Below are positions 5,188 through 28,516 of a DNA stretch of 64,000 bases, one piece after another (positions within the stretch are counted from its first letter, which is position 1; every line of letters starts with the position of its first letter). A program made the position numbers and the translations under genes. The notes below the pieces were generated by a model. It ran no database searches. It was not told where the DNA came from and saw only the letters and a program-made list of their open reading frames with translations. Source of the DNA: Pseudoxanthomonas wuyuanensis (GTDB taxonomy: Bacteria; Pseudomonadota; Gammaproteobacteria; Xanthomonadales; Xanthomonadaceae); the NCBI RefSeq assembly GCF_900215535.1, contig NZ_OCND01000001.1, positions 434,001 through 498,000 of the forward strand, given 5' to 3'.

Positions 5188-5265
5188 CCGGGCTGCGCAA
5201 ACGCTCACCTGATTTGAAGGTGGGCCATGTTATCCCGGTGCCGTTGCACAACCGCGGAGGAACAC

Positions 5266-5925
5266 ATGGCAACCATCCGGGCACGCAAGTCAGCGGCAGG
5301 CAGCGCCGGCGTACGCAAGCCGGCCAGCAAGGCAGCGAAAAGTTCGGCCAGGAAGGCCGCAAAGAAGGCCACAAAGAAGGCGACAAAAAAATCGGCCAAG
5401 AAGGCGACGAAGAAGGCCGCCACCAAACTGACGGTCAAGAAGGCCGCCACCAAGCGGACGGTCAAGAAGGCCGCCGCAAAAACCGCCACACCGGCGAGCA
5501 AGAAGGCGACCGGGAAAGCGGCCAAGCGGACGGTCAGCAAAGCCGCCAGTAAGACGGCCGCGGCCAAGACCGTGCGCAAGGCGGGCGCAGGCGGGACCGC
5601 GAAGGCAGCCACCCGCACCCCCGCGAAAAAAGCCGCCGGCAAACGTGCCGCGCCCAAACGGGTGACTCCGCGGCAGGCGCTGGCCAGGACCCGCAAGCTG
5701 CTTGAACAGAAACAGCAGGCACGGCGCGAAGTGCAGCCATGGCAGTTGCTGGACGGCGCGCCGCAGGCGCATGCCTCCGGACCGGCGTTGCAGTCCCCCG
5801 AGGCAGCCGGGAAAGCGCTGGAACTGCATGCCGGCGAGAGCCGGATGAAGGCGATCCAGGGCAGCGTGGGAACCCGCGACCGCCGCAACCAGGGCAAACG
5901 CGATCACCGCAACGATGGCGATTGA
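5266..5925 (+). CDS. Histone H1-like Lys/Ala-rich nucleoid protein
   Basis: The ATG at 5266 is preferred over one at 5227 because GGAGG lies 6 bases upstream and the basic sequence starts there. The 219-residue product has about 130 residues of AKKATKK- and KKAATKR-type repeats, resembling eukaryotic H1 tails and bacterial AlgP/Hc-type proteins. A less biased C-terminal part follows (RQALARTRKLLEQKQQARREVQPWQLL) that may form a helix. DNA binding and compaction through charge are inferred from composition. The low-complexity repeats are prone to length change between strains. A GC-rich hairpin follows at 5940. Confidence 0.72.
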   Translation: MATIRARKSAAGSAGVRKPASKAAKSSARKAAKKATKKATKKSAKKATKKAATKLTVKKAATKRTVKKAAAKTATPASKKATGKAAKRTVSKAASKTAAAKTVRKAGAGGTAKAATRTPAKKAAGKRAAPKRVTPRQALARTRKLLEQKQQARREVQPWQLLDGAPQAHASGPALQSPEAAGKALELHAGESRMKAIQGSVGTRDRRNQGKRDHRNDGD

Positions 5926-5939
5926 GCCGGGATCCGCAA

Positions 5940-5959
5940 GGCGGGCGGTATCGCCCGCC
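5940..5959 (+). terminator. GC hairpin after the histone-like gene
   Basis: An inverted repeat, GGCGGGCG with loop GTAT and CGCCCGCC, begins 15 bases after the stop codon. It is followed by CTGG rather than a clear T-run, so it may stop transcription weakly or protect the 3' end. Confidence 0.4.
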
Positions 5960-6166
5960 CTGGCGCCGGCAGAGCGGCGTGATGCGGCTTGGCAGGCGCC
6001 GGTGGCCCCGTCTTCCGGCGCAGACCGGGAGCCGGCGGCCTGACCAGCCGTCCGGCTGTTGCAAAGCCCAGGCCGCAGCCAGGCCGCAGGGCTCCCGTTT
6101 GCGATGGAATGATGGCTTGTCCAGCGCTTGCCCTGGACATCGCGGGCATCGCTGCCGCGGTGGCGG

Positions 6167-22095: not shown

Positions 22096-22257
22096 TCAGT
22101 CCTCGAAGGATCCACATATGCCGCTGTCGTAGTAGTGGTTGCCGCCCTCATCCCGGTATTCGCTGACCAGCGCGAGCCCGGCATCGGCAAGCACGCCCTT
22201 GTAGGCTGCCGCCTCGTAGCCACTGCCTGGGGCGTGAACGTTCGTTGTCATCGACAT
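22096..22257 (-). pseudogene. C-terminal fragment of a SAM-dependent methyltransferase
   Basis: A 53-residue open frame reads MSMTTNVHAPGSGYEAAAYK, then GVLADAGLALVSEYRDEGGNHYYDS. The L-x-D/A-A-G-L-x-L-V-x-E-Y-x-D-E-G-x-N-H-Y-Y pattern matches the last 35 residues of class I methyltransferases. The AdoMet-binding half is absent. It may be the remnant of the terminal integron cassette, since a decayed attC-like site lies just upstream at 22259. It could be translated (ATG with AGGA before it), but no enzyme activity is expected. Confidence 0.5.
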
Positions 22258-22258
22258 C

Positions 22259-22315
22259 CTGTCAGATGCTCCAGGTCAACTCGCAAGGCGGGTTCGGATG
22301 GAGGGTCCGTCAGGC
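22259..22315 (-). repeat. Decayed attC site
   Basis: GTCAGGC at 22309-22315 stands where intact sites have GTTAGGC and overlaps the stop codon of the NTF2-like gene. GCAAGGCGGGTTCGG resembles the central CGAAGCGGGTTCGG of intact sites. The opposite core is poorly kept. The position between two cassette-like genes supports the call. Confidence 0.4.
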
Positions 22316-22717
22316 AGCGCTTTGCTGGCTCGTGTGCGCGGGCGTAAGGTGGGTCAGCATGCAGCGCCACTGTCCATCCACTCGCCGGTAGATATCGGTG
22401 ATGTACTCATCGGCGGCCATTGGCGCGCCGTTGAACGTGCCGGTGTTCTGGCCGCGGCCGGTTATCCAGGCCACATCTCCGGCTACGCAGGCATGCGTCG
22501 CGACTTTCGTCATCGTGGCGTGGGTAAGAAGACCGGAGGCAATCACGCCGAGGATGCGAGAGCGGGGCACGGGGCCGGCCTCCGGAGTCACCAGTATCCA
22601 ATCGTCGGTGATGCAGCGCGAAATCTGCTCTACATCGTTGGAGATCATCGCCTTGTTGAAGGCATCCTCGAGTTCCATCAGGAAATCCGGGATATCAGCA
22701 TGGCTCGTTGTGTTCAC
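22310..22717 (-). CDS. NTF2-like / SnoaL-like protein (DUF4440 type), integron cassette
   Basis: A 135-residue soluble protein with the NTF2-like cone pattern: helical start DFLMELEDAFNKAMISNDVEQISRC, then DDWILVTPEAG, the strand set ATHACVAGDVAWITGRGQNTG and the closing YRRVDGQWRCMLTHLTP. Members bind or convert small hydrophobic molecules or act as scaffolds; no substrate can be read. It is in the same orientation as the other cassettes and its stop overlaps a decayed attC core, so it is probably an old, fixed cassette. Confidence 0.72.
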   Translation of the reverse strand: MNTTSHADIPDFLMELEDAFNKAMISNDVEQISRCITDDWILVTPEAGPVPRSRILGVIASGLLTHATMTKVATHACVAGDVAWITGRGQNTGTFNGAPMAADEYITDIYRRVDGQWRCMLTHLTPAHTSQQSAA

Positions 22718-22962
22718 GTCCGACTCTCCTGGTGCGTAGTGGCGTCTGATACCTGATTCATCCGGTCCGCGATTAGCCGCTTTTCCGCGTCGGCGACCCC
22801 AGCTGCGACCGCCAGTGTCGGGGCATCGGCGCTGAAGCCGCCCTCACAATGTACAGGCCATGGGCGGGCGCAGGGAGAACCCTTCGGCGGCCGCTATCCG
22901 GGCCGCGCCGCGAAGCAGCGATGGACCGAATGCATGGGCAAGTGCTGCCGGGTTCGCCATGG

Positions 22963-23343
22963 CTAGTCCCACTGAGTGGCGTTCTTCGGGAAACCAGGGC
23001 GCTGCACCCGGACGACACAGAACCGCTGGCCTGTGGGCGCCTGCATCACGACCCAGCGCTCCAACCGCTCGACGACCGTGGCGCCAAGCGCTTCAAGGCG
23101 GGCAACCTCCGCAGGAATATTGTCGGTTTCGATATCGAGATGCACGCGGCTCTCATGGCTGACGCGTTGAATCTGAACGATGGGCTCGTCCGGTGGCGTG
23201 TCCAGCATGCGATAGTCGCCGCGTGTACCCGGATGTTCGGGATCGACCGGGCGTCCGAGGGCAGCCGCCCAGAACCGGGCAGCCTCGTCGATATCCGATA
23301 CCAGGCAGTCGACCAGCAGTGCGCAAAGCCGGGAATGATGCAT
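22963..23343 (-). CDS. VOC-superfamily (glyoxalase-like) protein, integron cassette
   Basis: The start at 23343 is chosen for GAGAGG 6 bases upstream; the open frame continues upstream only through the spacer. The 126-residue product has paired beta-alpha-beta-beta-beta modules: LLVDCLVSDIDEAARFWAAAL at the N-terminus and VHLDIETDNIPAEVARLEALGA in the second half, ending in FCVVRVQRPGF. VOC proteins include glyoxalases, dioxygenases and drug-binding resistance proteins. The function is unassigned. It is the cassette just downstream of the aac(3)-like gene in array order. Confidence 0.75.
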   Translation of the reverse strand: MHHSRLCALLVDCLVSDIDEAARFWAAALGRPVDPEHPGTRGDYRMLDTPPDEPIVQIQRVSHESRVHLDIETDNIPAEVARLEALGATVVERLERWVVMQAPTGQRFCVVRVQRPGFPKNATQWD

Positions 23344-23368
23344 TTTTCCTCTCCAATGTACGATGCAG

Positions 23369-23450
23369 ACTGATGCCCGGAAGCCGAGCCGGGGTTGTTG
23401 GCGGAGGCTCGCCACCTGAGCCAGGCAGAGGTTGGCAAAGAGCCTAGGCA
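23369..23450 (-). repeat. Degenerate attC between the VOC and aac(3)-like genes
   Basis: CTGATGCCCGGAAGCCGAGCC resembles the intact left half (CCTAACGCCTGAATTAAGCC). TAGGC at 23445-23449 overlaps the stop codon of the acetyltransferase where GTTAGGC would be. Both cores carry substitutions, so recombination is probably weak or lost. Confidence 0.38.
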
Positions 23451-23932
23451 GCGCTTTCGCCAGGTGCAATATCGAAGTGCAGAACGTCTTCGCGGACTCC
23501 CAGCTTTGTATACAGGGCAATCGCTGGATCGTCGCCATAATCCGCCTGGACGAAGATTACATAGATACCTCTGGCTGCGGCCAGCCTCTTGAGTCGTTCG
23601 ATGAGCCCTGTGGCGATGCCGCGCCGACGGTAGGCTTCCTCGACAGCGAGGTCATAGATGTAGAACTCGGAGCGGGCCTGCTCGAACTTGGGGAGCACAT
23701 AGCCAGCCAGCCCGCCGATCACGCTGGTACCGGCCAGGGCAACGATGGCAACGAAGGTGTCGCCTTCAAGCAGATTCTGCAGATAGCGGTCATCCGGCTG
23801 CTTGCCGCTGTATGTTTGCTCATCGTCGAACCCGCGTCCGAACATGGCGAGCATCGCACGAGCCAGCGCCACGTCCTGCGCGCCAAGGACCCGGACTTCG
23901 AAAGACTCGGCAGACGATAAAGCACTAGCCAC
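23444..23932 (-). CDS. AAC(3)-I family aminoglycoside 3-N-acetyltransferase homologue, integron cassette
   Basis: The GTG at 23932 is chosen because AGGAGG lies 5 bases upstream, directly after an attC site. The 162-residue GNAT protein closely follows AAC(3)-Ia as I remember it: [19 protein letters not shown] (FGREFGD..TYS..QPD), [34 protein letters not shown] (acetyl-CoA loop, residues 102-115), and [18 protein letters not shown] then [12 protein letters not shown](3)-I enzymes acetylate gentamicin, sisomicin and fortimicin. Long runs of identity make the family secure. Whether this protein confers resistance at native expression is unknown. It is a cassette in a chromosomal, apparently non-clinical integron. 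Confidence 0.88.
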
Positions 23933-23949
23933 TCGACCTCCTGCTGCTG

Positions 23950-24002
23950 TCCGACGGCGAATTGCGACGACCCGCGAAGCGGCGCCGGCCTGAATGTTAG
24001 AT
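23950..24002 (-). repeat. Partly degenerate attC upstream of the aac(3)-like gene
   Basis: TCCGACG at 23950 stands for TCTAACG. The centre GACCCGCGAAGCGG matches standard attC hairpins, and GTTAGAT at 23996-24002 is a well-kept core that overlaps the stop codon of the next gene. Total length is 53 bases. Confidence 0.6.
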
Positions 24003-24380
24003 GCTCGGCTGCATCTGCGCCAGCATGAGTACGTAGCCATCCGGGTCCTCCAACCTGCACTCGCCGCCAGGCATGTAGAACGGATGCTTGATCTCGCCAG
24101 GCGAATACCCAAGCTCTTCCAAAGCGGCGCGTGTCCGCTTGATGCTGTCGAAATACAGATAGAACAGAATGGCCTGTTGGGATGCGTCGATAGGTCCGGA
24201 AGCCAAGTCAACCATCAAGTTGGCCTTCTCACTCTCCAACCAGGCCCAGACTGGCGCCGATTGGCCCTCTGGAACGACGGTGCGCGCAACCTTGAAGCCG
24301 AGGCCTGCATAGAACCTGATGCTGCGTTCGACGCTGGCGACGTGCACGAAGGCTACAAGCGGTTGAGTCCGAGCGGCCAT
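23997..24380 (-). CDS. VOC-superfamily bleomycin-resistance/glyoxalase-like protein, integron cassette
   Basis: A start at 24380 ([20 protein letters not shown]) is preferred; the longer frame reads through the attC. The 127 residues hold two VOC modules: [18 protein letters not shown] with [17 protein letters not shown], and [21 protein letters not shown] with the C-terminal [13 protein letters not shown]. This pattern is typical of bleomycin-resistance-like and dioxygenase-like VOC proteins. Binding of a small toxic molecule is a family-based possibility, not shown. Its stop codon lies in the attC core at 23996. Confidence 0.8.
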
Positions 24381-24396
24381 ATTGCCTCCAAGGCCA

Positions 24397-24452
24397 TCTG
24401 ACGCCTGGGTTGAGCCGGGCCGAAGCGGGTCCGGCTTGACTGAGTACAAACA
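24397..24452 (-). repeat. Degenerate attC
   Basis: TCTGACG at 24397 (intact form TCTAACG), then CCTGGGTTGAGCCGGGCCGA and CGGGTCCGGCTTGACTGAGT. The left half and hairpin are clear, but the right core GTTAG has been lost. Confidence 0.55.
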
Positions 24453-24506: not shown

Positions 24507-24788
24507 CTAGAGCGAGCCCGCGGCGATGACTGCCAAGCAGGCAAAGCCCAGCGAGAACGACACGATCCGCTGCCAAGTCCTAGCGGCACGGTTGGTGACG
24601 AGCGAGTAAGCCGACGCCAAGACAAGCCCTAACAGGGCCAGTAGAGCAAAAGCGAGAGTCCATGAGCCAATTTGCCACGCGAGCAAATTGCCCGGGAAAG
24701 CCAAGAGGGCTATCGTCGCAACTGCCGCGAGGGCTAAAGCGCCGAAGATGAGCGAGCTTTTGACCACAAATGTCCGATTGGCTGTCAT
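24507..24788 (-). CDS. Small integral membrane protein, integron cassette
   Basis: A 93-residue protein with three predicted membrane helices: SSLIFGALALAAVATIALLA, GSWTLAFALLALLGLVLASA and IVSFSLGFACLAVIAAGSL. The short loop TNRAARTWQR suggests a cytosolic side after helix 2. I recognise no family. The start codon lies 4 bases beyond an attC left core, which probably supplies part of the translation start region. Confidence 0.65.
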   Translation of the reverse strand: MTANRTFVVKSSLIFGALALAAVATIALLAFPGNLLAWQIGSWTLAFALLALLGLVLASAYSLVTNRAARTWQRIVSFSLGFACLAVIAAGSL

Positions 24789-24792
24789 TGCT

Positions 24793-24851
24793 GCCTAATG
24801 CTTGAGTTAAGCCGCCTGCGAAGCGGGTCCGGCTTGAACGAACTGATAGAC
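24793..24851 (-). repeat. attC site, slightly degenerate
   Basis: GCCTAAT, then GCTTGAGTTAAGCCG, central GCGAAGCGGGTC, and CGGCTTGAACGAACTGATAGAC. Only one base of each core differs from consensus (CCTAAC and GTTAGAC). Length 59 bases. Confidence 0.75.
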
Positions 24852-25163
24852 CTACGTGTGGCCATGATTGAACCCGCCCTCTACGTCTGAGGTTGGGTCG
24901 CCGAGCTCGTTGTCAAAAGATTGTCGGATATCAGCGAGAGTGTCCCCTGGGTCCAGCCCGTATTCCTCCTGAAGTGCGTTGGCGATGTGTCGCGCGGCGT
25001 CCGCCAGAAGAATGCCCCAACTCAGGGGCTCATCACGTCCGCTGTCGTGCCAAAGGCCAATCTTCATGGCGCAGTGGAGCCCATTCTCCGCCGCCCATGC
25101 ACTGAATAGCTGTATCGCCTTTTCGTCTCGCTGTGCAGCCGGTGGGACTATTAATGGTTTCAT
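24852..25163 (-). CDS. DUF5076-like protein, integron cassette
   Basis: A 103-residue soluble protein: QLFSAWAAENGLHCAMKIGL, then WGILLADAARHIANALQEEYG and a C-terminal DTLADIRQSFDNELGDPTSD. The W-G-I-L-L-A-D-x-A-R-H-I-A block and its position resemble DUF5076, a small family of unknown role. It begins 7 bases after a long attC and stops at the edge of the next one. Confidence 0.7.
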   Translation of the reverse strand: MKPLIVPPAAQRDEKAIQLFSAWAAENGLHCAMKIGLWHDSGRDEPLSWGILLADAARHIANALQEEYGLDPGDTLADIRQSFDNELGDPTSDVEGGFNHGHT

Positions 25164-25740: not shown

Positions 25741-25830
25741 CCCTAACGCCTGAGTTAAGCCGGCCCGCCCTGGCCAACTGTCAAATCAAAGCCATAACGA
25801 TGCGGGCTCGGCTTGAACGAATTGTTAGGC
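25741..25830 (-). repeat. attC site (90-base type)
   Basis: CCCTAAC at 25741 and GTTAGGC at 25824 with inner repeats CCTGAGTTAAGCCGG and CGGCTTGAACGAAT. The hairpin centre is extended by about 30 bases. It differs at only about seven positions from the attC at 26524. Confidence 0.9.
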
Positions 25831-26109: not shown

Positions 26110-26169
26110 GCCTAACGCCTGAATTAAGCCGAGCCGCGAAGCGGCTTCGGCTTGAATGAATTGTTAGGG
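26110..26169 (-). repeat. attC site (60-base type)
   Basis: GCCTAAC at 26110, inner CCTGAATTAAGCCG, loop region AGCCGCGAAGCGGCT, CGGCTTGAATGAATT and GTTAGGG at 26163. All four attC boxes are present and strongly palindromic. Confidence 0.93.
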
Positions 26170-26523: not shown

Positions 26524-26613
26524 GCCTAACGCCTGAGTTAAGCCGGCCCGCCCTGGCCAGCTTTCAGATCAAAGCCGTAACGATGCGGGCTCGGCTTGAA
26601 CGAATGGTTAGGT
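26524..26613 (-). repeat. attC site (90-base type)
   Basis: GCCTAAC at 26524 and GTTAGGT at 26607. Almost the same sequence as the attC at 25741, including the same extended centre (ATCAAAGCCGTAACGATGCG). Confidence 0.92.
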
Positions 26614-26917: not shown

Positions 26918-26977
26918 ACCTAACGCCTGAATTAAGCCGACTTGCGAAGCAAGTTCGGCTTGAATGAATTGTTAGGC
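26918..26977 (-). repeat. attC site of the first cassette (60-base type)
   Basis: ACCTAAC at 26918 and GTTAGGC at 26971 flank inner boxes CCTGAATTAAGCCG and CGGCTTGAATGAATT, with loop stem ACTTGCGAAGCAAGT. It is the best preserved site together with 26110, and the closest to attI. Confidence 0.94.
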
Positions 26978-27348: not shown

Positions 27349-27453
27349 GCCTAACAACTATTCGACCCCTCAAATGGGGCGTTGCGCGGAGTATGGGGTA
27401 GTTTTCGGACAAATCCAATCAGAAGATTCCTACCTGTAAACAAGGGGTTAGGC
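27349..27453 (-). repeat. attI recombination site of the integron
   Basis: The core GTTAGGC (minus strand; GCCTAAC at 27349-27355) marks the junction with the first cassette, 160 bases before intI. A mirrored core, GTTAGGC on the plus strand, stands at 27447-27453. The small stem CCCC-TCAAAT-GGGG is at 27367. The interior does not match the attC hairpins of the array, so attI is the better call. Confidence 0.7.
27390..27418 (-). promoter_or_regulatory. Candidate cassette promoter Pc
   Basis: On the minus strand TTGGAT (27418-27413), a 17-base spacer and CATACT (27395-27390) point into the array from within the attI region, about 40 bases before the first cassette boundary. Match to sigma-70 consensus is moderate, and spacing and position fit a Pc promoter. 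Confidence 0.35.
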
Positions 27454-27514: not shown

Positions 27515-28516
27515 ATGAAATACGCAGGTGCCAAGGAGGGCGTAACGAACGGGGGAGGGCGCTCGCCCAGGCTGCTGGATCAGGTGCGGGCAGCGGTGCG
27601 GATCCGTCATTACAGCCGGCGTACGGAGCAGGCTTATGTAGCCTGGATAAAGCGCTTTGTGCTGGTCAACGGCAAGCGCCATCCGCGCGAGATGGGCGGG
27701 CGCGAAGTGGAAGCCTTCCTCACCGACCTTGCTATCCGCCACAACGTGGCCGCAGGCACGCAGAACCAGGCCTTGGCGGCATTGCTGTTCCTGTATCGCG
27801 ACGTACTTGGCGTTGAGCTGCCCTGGATGTCGGACATGGTGCGGGCCAAGCGGCCGCGGCGAATTCCTGCGGTGCTCGCGCGCGAAGAGGTGGTGCGGCT
27901 GCTGGCCGTGCTGGACGGGCAGGCCTGGTTGATGGCGGCCTTGCTGTACGGCACTGGCATGCGTCTGATGGAATGCGTACGGCTGCGGGTGAAGGACGTG
28001 GATTTCGCCCGTAACGAAATCACGGTGCGGGGAGGCAAGGGCGGCAAGGATCGGCGCGTGCCGTTGCCGCGACGGCTGTGCGAATCGCTGCAAGCTGCTG
28101 TGGAGCGGGTACGGGTATTGCATGCGCGCGATCTGGCCAACGGCGCGGGCGAGGTGTGGCTGCCGCATGCATTGGCGCGCAAGTACCCTGGCGCCGCCCG
28201 TGAGCCCGGCTGGCAGTACTTGTTTCCAGCACAGAACCTGTCGCGCGATCCGCGCAGCGGGCGGCAGCGGCGCCACCATGTGGACGAAAGCGTGCTGCAA
28301 CGTGCCATCAAGCGTGCGCGGGAGCAGGCGGGTATCGAGAAAGCGGCGAGCTGCCATACCCTGCGCCATTCCTTCGCCACCCATTTGCTGGAATCGGGAT
28401 CGGACATCCGCACCGTGCAGGAGCTGTTGGGTCACAAGGATATTTCCACCACCCAGATCTATACGCATGTGCTGAACCGCGGCGCTGGCGGCGTGCTGAG
28501 TCCGCTGGATCGTTGA
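27515..28516 (+). CDS. intI: Integron integrase (tyrosine recombinase IntI), apparently intact
   Basis: A 333-residue tyrosine recombinase with an N-terminal SAM-like domain ([20 protein letters not shown]) and a complete catalytic set: R150 in [17 protein letters not shown]281 and R284 in [12 protein letters not shown]307 in [10 protein letters not shown]316 in QIYTHVL. The IntI-specific insertion ([19 protein letters not shown], residues 216-234) separates it from XerC/D. Numbering runs four ahead of IntI1 as I recall it. No frameshift or stop is seen, although intI genes of Xanthomonas are often broken. IntI excises cassettes at attC and inserts them at attI. The stop codon lies one base before the comEC start. 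Confidence 0.95.

Follow-up and report, generated by a model that had tools for sequence, protein, structure and literature searches.

An aac(3)-I-type gene at the intI-distal end of a chromosomal integron in Pseudoxanthomonas wuyuanensis: probably a former cassette with decayed attC sites

Is the aac(3)-I-type gene found near an integron of Pseudoxanthomonas wuyuanensis a cassette, and could it belong to the stock from which the AAC(3)-I genes of clinical integrons came? An earlier note, made from the sequence alone, had described it as a chromosomal integron cassette, located directly after an attC site and possibly part of the clinical reservoir. The gene was analysed within a stretch of 64,000 nucleotides, referred to as the window, taken from a contig of 1.18 Mb (bases 434001-498000), in a genome of 4.67 Mb.

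The gene occupies positions 23444..23932, the exact limits of the ORF as the earlier note had counted it from the GTG; it lies on the minus strand, which had not been specified. The TAG stop codon is at 23444-23446, and the frame encodes 162 amino acids with no break. The AGGAGG reported before the start was confirmed, 4 nt upstream of the GTG, and both protein blocks quoted as diagnostic are present and align with solved and plasmid-borne AAC(3)-I enzymes. Judged by its sequence, the product is a GNAT acetyltransferase of the AAC(3)-I family. Against the NCBI equivalog model AAC_3_I (NF033083, cut-off 200) it reaches 225.4 bits, over model positions 1-144 of 145, and it contains a GNAT domain (PF00583, 60.6 bits vs a cut-off of 20.7). 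Its best relatives in PDB are aminoglycoside (3-)acetyltransferases (4yfj, with 191.6 bits, followed by 6bvc, 5hmn, 9mgs and 1bo4). The family membership claimed before is therefore borne out by both the NCBI model and the solved relatives. Placement outside the AAC(3)-I family had been named as the outcome that would speak against it; the protein is placed inside by NF033083, the 108-protein tree described below having no outgroup.

As inferred from the family, the enzyme most likely uses acetyl-CoA to acetylate 2-deoxystreptamine aminoglycosides, for instance gentamicin, sisomicin or fortimicin, at their 3-amino group, and likely acts as a resistance enzyme. GNAT enzymes switch substrate easily, and the AAC(3)-I family is common in chromosomes, with at least 533 encoding stretches; both points would suit a GNAT enzyme of other function, unrelated to aminoglycoside resistance, which would be compatible with either account of the gene's descent discussed below. 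This is considered unlikely, since the window protein exceeds the equivalog cut-off and, when compared with seven plasmid AAC(3)-I proteins, differs at only 5 internal positions which are invariant in the plasmid set, each exchange being among small or hydrophobic residues.

As to the genomic setting, the window holds a true chromosomal integron, as the earlier note had stated: both an integrase gene and four canonical attC sites were found. The integron integrase gene, intI, is on the plus strand at 27515..28516 (TIGR02249, 506.2 bits vs a cut-off of 265; PF00589 and PF13495), directly followed by comEC (from 28518; PF03772). A search of the window with Rfam, at gathering thresholds, returned four tRNAs and no attC. 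Sites were identified by using two attC models. R1 was built on 16 training sites, four from the window and none from the 80 named loci compared below; for R2, training used 43 sites in 12 loci other than the window, and 10 of these loci are among the 80 later scanned. Both models may overlook attC of unlike types. A half-site pairing scan was rejected as sole attC test, being too noisy: the best of 252 control windows scored 34. The four canonical attC are located, on the minus strand, at 26918..26977, nearest to intI (R2 69.3 bits, fold z -5.48), 26524..26613 (68.2 bits), 26110..26169 (67.4 bits) and 25741..25830 (66.6 bits). These sites, as well as a decayed one at 24793 (47.9 bits), each score best on the minus strand, in the same orientation as the minus-strand genes. 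The stretch between the array and intI, 27349..27453, is the presumed position of attI, assigned by location; R2 matches there are weak (13.6 and 9.1 bits).

An integron integrase above the cut-off is encoded by 26 of the 38 genomes of the genus, this one counted, and intI lies beside comEC in 10 of the 14 congener intI loci fetched. Because of this frequency and of the recurrent comEC neighbour, the integron looks like a resident platform. It resembles the sedentary chromosomal integrons of Xanthomonadaceae in the presence of intI, in attC of the GCCTAACAATTCGTTCAAGCCG type and in cassettes running opposite to intI, but only four of its sites are good and its far end is decayed over a long stretch, whereas L145 and L146, two loci of congeners, each contain more than 30 high-scoring attC among the matches listed.

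The loss of attC quality can be followed step by step toward the AAC gene: with rising distance from intI, R2 scores are 69.3, 68.2, 67.4, 66.6, 47.9, 14.2 and 4.6 bits. The fifth site (24793..24851, minus strand; R2 47.9 bits, R1 50.4 bits) reads GTCTATC where RYYYAAC is expected, and ATTAGGC instead of GTTRRRY; even with its cores mutated, it is the nearest clearly scoring attC, about 0.86 kb upstream of the AAC gene. The sixth (24396..24451, minus strand) is strongly decayed, with 14.2 bits and an E-value of 0.05 by R2, and 13.9 bits and 0.18 by R1. The single-stranded folding of the two, compared with that of shuffled sequences, is weak in both cases (z -1.07 and -1.46, respectively). Immediately before the AAC gene, a presumed attC remnant (23949..24002, minus strand) features ATCTAAC at one end and GTCGGAC for the expected GTTRRRY. 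Its R2 score of 4.6 bits (E 6.4) is at noise level, as R2 also assigns 7.6 bits to positions 22844-22939, behind the downstream neighbour of the AAC gene, and the stretch (23946-24002) folds no better than shuffles (z +0.57). Given this noise-level score, the absent fold and an R' core reading GTC rather than GTT, the earlier wording "directly after an attC" fits at most a remnant.

The attC of the AAC gene itself would be expected on the opposite side, within 23344..23455 of the minus strand. GCCTAGG is found there at the stop codon, and no site was detected: R2 has no match in 23344-23443, and folding is at chance level (z +0.69). With filters off, R1 reports 7.1 bits (E 1.2) at 23411-23557, largely within the AAC gene. 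The array of the window offers a clear example of cassettes seemingly fixed as their attC sites decayed. AAC(3)-I genes located past the last detected attC, at distances of 0.05-2.3 kb, were also observed in L054, L062, L066, L068 and L070, as in the window; such a position may indicate old cassettes which became fixed.

A scan of one genome per species gave at least 533 loci with relatives of the gene, and the 80 closest to the window protein were retained. Among these, the nearest is found in Piscinibacter defluvii SH-1 (contig056, NZ_RCHJ01000056.1; L044), with a protein identity of 80%, the second-nearest reaching 73%. The Piscinibacter gene resembles that of the window in its equal length, in its GTG start and in a DNA identity of 78.5% over the ORF, and its protein has all 5 of the departures from the seven plasmid proteins. 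It differs in belonging to the order Burkholderiales and in being flanked by attC on both sides, whereas the window copy has no recognisable attC on either. The two Piscinibacter sites, at 5220-5345 and 5844-5971, directly flank the gene, whose stop codon is inside the downstream one; their fold z-scores are -3.24 and -7.34. The contig is a cassette array of 10 attC, most of them about 126 nt long and one cut by the contig end.

Outside the ORFs the likeness of the two loci is limited. A leader of 25 nt is similar, as 19 of 2000 shuffles were equally good, a modest result for a segment which includes the ribosome-binding site; similarity is not significant further upstream (1524 of 2000 shuffles as good) or after the stop codon (141 of 2000). 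At the stop codon, GCCTAGG in the window takes the place of the GCCTAAC which opens the attC in Piscinibacter. The differences between the two genes are distributed as 22, 13 and 70 over codon positions 1, 2 and 3, corresponding to a dN of 0.11, a dS of 0.98 and a dN/dS of 0.11 (Nei-Gojobori script), values which span both lineages, with dS near 1, and are no proof of selection in this genome. As no attC can be demonstrated beside the window gene, the case for its descent from a cassette is based on the sister and on the position. The term "cassette" used in the earlier note thus stands as a statement of ancestry, by virtue of the Piscinibacter sister cassette, and fails for the present-day gene, which has no attC before or after it.

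A tree was built from 108 proteins: the window protein, 7 plasmid proteins, those of the 80 named loci, and those of 20 of the 25 loci from the family Xanthomonadaceae (5 duplicates were dropped). AAC(3)-Id and other variants were left out, and the bootstrap had yet to converge. The proteins of the window and of Piscinibacter are sisters (99/97), within a group of 24 rows separated from the other 84 at 96/91. Its largest part is formed by 11 rows which we take to be Burkholderiales; the remainder presumably comprises other betaproteobacteria, two Rhodanobacteraceae, three cyanobacteria, two family loci and others. The only other Xanthomonadaceae on the window's side of the tree are L020 and L031, the latter on a very long branch. 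All seven plasmid proteins are on the opposite side. Since the 80 loci were picked by closeness to the window protein, the sisters given here for the clinical proteins are no more than their closest relatives in that sample: a protein of a congener, L032, for Ia, Ib, If and the Rms149 enzyme (99/93), and one of Luteimonas suaedae for AAC(3)-Ic (98/82). L032 is 65% identical to AAC(3)-Ia over about 122 residues, all that can be compared because part of its gene reads N, and 68% identical over 112 residues in the family-genome search. The AAC proteins of three congeners group with that of a Pseudoxanthomonas MAG (100/99). Five AAC proteins from the family match Luteimonas or Lysobacter records exactly over their last 150 residues, which points to the family of these two genera.

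In this tree of relatives, a check of the kind proposed in the earlier note, the window protein stands as sister of the Piscinibacter one, and not with the clinical Ia, Ib, If and Ic. Forcing it together with Ia, Ib, If and the Rms149 enzyme costs 47 log-likelihood units, a borderline rejection (p-AU 0.0497). The clinical AAC(3)-Ia, -Ib, -Ic and -If and the Rms149 enzyme share with it the family, a similar length and the conserved blocks, at 57-63% identity, and differ in their place in the tree. The clinical genes occur as integron cassettes; in those of aac(3)-Ia and -Ib, the attC has arms which match the canonical attC of the window. Their own attC directly follows the gene in 5 of the 7 plasmid genes (L038 and L040-L043), while none is detectable after the window gene; the AAC(3)-Ic plasmid gene is fused to a second gene, which has an attC, and Ih, in Paracoccus, has no attC.

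With these identities, a separate position in the tree and the borderline p-AU, the suggestion that this gene is part of the reservoir of clinical ones is unsupported. The gene looks like a cousin of the hospital aminoglycoside-resistance genes rather than their source. As a source of aac(3)-Ia it was rejected: across the 297 family genomes, identity to AAC(3)-Ia reaches 68% at most, and none of the 26 with a match is close enough for a recent clinical source. Such matches (E up to 1e-25) occur in 26 of the 297 family genomes vs 6 of the 369 genomes of the class sample, the genome under study being counted in both (Fisher p 2.8e-5; 1.4e-5 without it). Matches above the NCBI AAC(3)-I cut-off occur in 6 of the 398 genomes of the phylum sample, again including this one. 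The presence of the family in a taxon, it must be stressed, does not show the source.

The notion of a reservoir may be right for the AAC(3)-I family at large, and in its general form it is already in print (Ghaly et al. 2021, PMC8352920). There, the aacC5 and aacC6 cassettes, AAC(3)-type cassettes of clinical integrons, are assigned to Xanthomonadales by their attC and, at 98% identity, three other resistance ORFs, none of them AAC(3), are given for chromosomal integrons. The words aminoglycoside and acetyltransferase are absent from the main text of a study of Xanthomonas integrons (PMC12444791). No report of an AAC(3)-I cassette in a chromosomal integron was found in the open-access literature, which is weak evidence of absence. 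The gene described here sits in a chromosomal integron of Xanthomonadaceae, yet a cassette of Burkholderiales, rather than any clinical gene, is the nearest relative found, which suggests a cassette pool wider than one order.

The reading we favour, at a probability of about 0.72, is that of a former cassette of the comEC-side chromosomal integron, moved to its far end and fixed there by attC decay, the protein being kept by selection. The gene would have entered the integron as a cassette, a state directly seen in the Burkholderiales sister and presumed for the window copy. It would have reached the intI-distal end as newer cassettes entered, as its position and the gradient of attC quality suggest. 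The surrounding attC would then have decayed past recognition, in line with what is seen in both sequence and fold, so fixing the gene in place, and the unbroken frame and the dN/dS of 0.11 relative to the sister point to selection on the protein. A supporting parallel is found in a congener (G063), where an AAC(3)-I gene 64% identical to that of the window (L157 9656-11882) lies beside same-strand attC matches of mixed quality, 14.6 to 44.3 bits, on a different contig from the intI of that genome. A cassette still mobile, which IntI could excise by means of the surrounding sites, seems very improbable given GTC for GTT and the lack of a stable fold before the gene, and given that no attC follows it. 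This holds even though intI is intact, four canonical attC belong to the same array, ATCTAAC is a normal half-site, and attC activity is governed by structure more than by sequence.

It also has to be considered that the gene was never a cassette here, and that a small chromosomal cluster of AAC(3)-I and VOC genes happens to border the integron. The AAC gene is preceded, on the minus strand, by a glyoxalase/bleomycin-resistance (VOC) gene (23997..24383; PF00903, 39.2 bits) and followed by a glyoxalase-like (VOC) gene (22963..23343, minus strand; PF18029, 84 bits), copies of which, 83-87% identical, occur in 4 of the 37 congeners searched. In one of these four, G158 (L158 8842-10141), the VOC gene, 83% identical, comes after an AAC(3)-I gene, and no attC match above 7.3 bits is found nearby. 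Being present in four congeners, and free of attC in this one, the downstream VOC gene indicates that part of the stretch may be ordinary chromosome. Most family homologues, moreover, have no detected attC: with at most about 1.5 kb of flank examined, R2 finds one in 2 of the 25 family loci (L008 and L019), and a weak match directly after the gene is reported by R1 alone in L082, the same gene as L016 (21.4 bits, E 0.038). The AAC genes of G158 and of the window are nevertheless of different lineages (52-54% identity), so the AAC-VOC pair was not simply inherited together. In the tree, the window protein sides with a Burkholderiales cassette, apart from most family genes, and the decayed attC at 24793, and probably that at 24396, bring the array to about 0.5-0.9 kb from the AAC gene. 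On balance, a purely chromosomal origin is judged improbable, and a former cassette remains the preferred reading.

How widely AAC(3)-I genes are associated with attC was evaluated in the 80 named loci. R1 matches (E up to 1) occur in 14 of them, all 45 on the strand of the AAC gene. R2 matches occur in 17, with 62 of 65 on that strand and the other three being mirror sites in L044, counts which are not independent of training because 10 of the 17 positive loci provided training sites. R2-positive loci are 10 of the 21 in the window's part of the tree vs 7 of the 59 elsewhere (Fisher p 0.0014, or 0.0042 with near copies collapsed), the group having been chosen after the tree was seen. When the attC label is mapped on the tree, at least 13 changes are required for the 17 positive rows, so that the association is widely spread. 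An attC directly after the AAC gene is found in the Piscinibacter locus and in a Salinisphaerales MAG (L105). In a Synechococcales MAG (L113), an R2 match lies about 0.6 kb upstream of the AAC gene, and the pairing scan gives sites on both sides of it, with scores also reached by control windows. One phage record contains a weak match, at 32% identity, and no match to the window gene was obtained in a nucleotide search of E. coli genomes.

We give even odds to the idea that AAC(3)-I cassettes move from one chromosomal integron to another across orders (Burkholderiales, Xanthomonadales, other Gammaproteobacteria and perhaps cyanobacteria), and do so independently of hospital plasmids. On this view, the window gene is a captured copy made permanent by the decay of attC at the far end. 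If true, the integron would have made a lasting chromosomal gene out of a resistance-type cassette that used to travel.

Some further features of these genomes may be recorded. The sole plasmid record in the 95-99% identity band was rejected as a near copy, being a 32-residue piece in a Nostoc plasmid. In the cyanobacterial loci L063, L071 and L073 (Aphanothece and Synechococcus), the AAC(3)-I gene is about 3-7 kb from a gene resembling an integron integrase, with attC matches between or near them. The genome of P. wuyuanensis itself encodes a second, more distant integron integrase (G000:C18:1686-2624; L002, L162), 51.6% identical to the first, with canonical attC nearby, toward the contig start (L162 623-682 and 1094-1183). 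Within the window, VOC-fold genes are found on both sides of the AAC gene (23997-24383 and 22963-23343), and a bleomycin-resistance cassette common to seven Xanthomonas species is described in the Xanthomonas study cited above (PMC12444791). The other minus-strand neighbours are a DUF5076 gene (24852..25163; PF16826, 101 bits), a small gene whose DUF2721 match is under the curated cut-off (24507..24788; PF11026, 18.2 bits vs 28.3) and a DUF4440/SnoaL-like gene (22310..22717; PF14534, 58.1 bits). Finally, an ORF of 53 aa at 22096-22257, with no Pfam match, overlaps the start region of a lyase ORF and is possibly the remnant of a larger gene.
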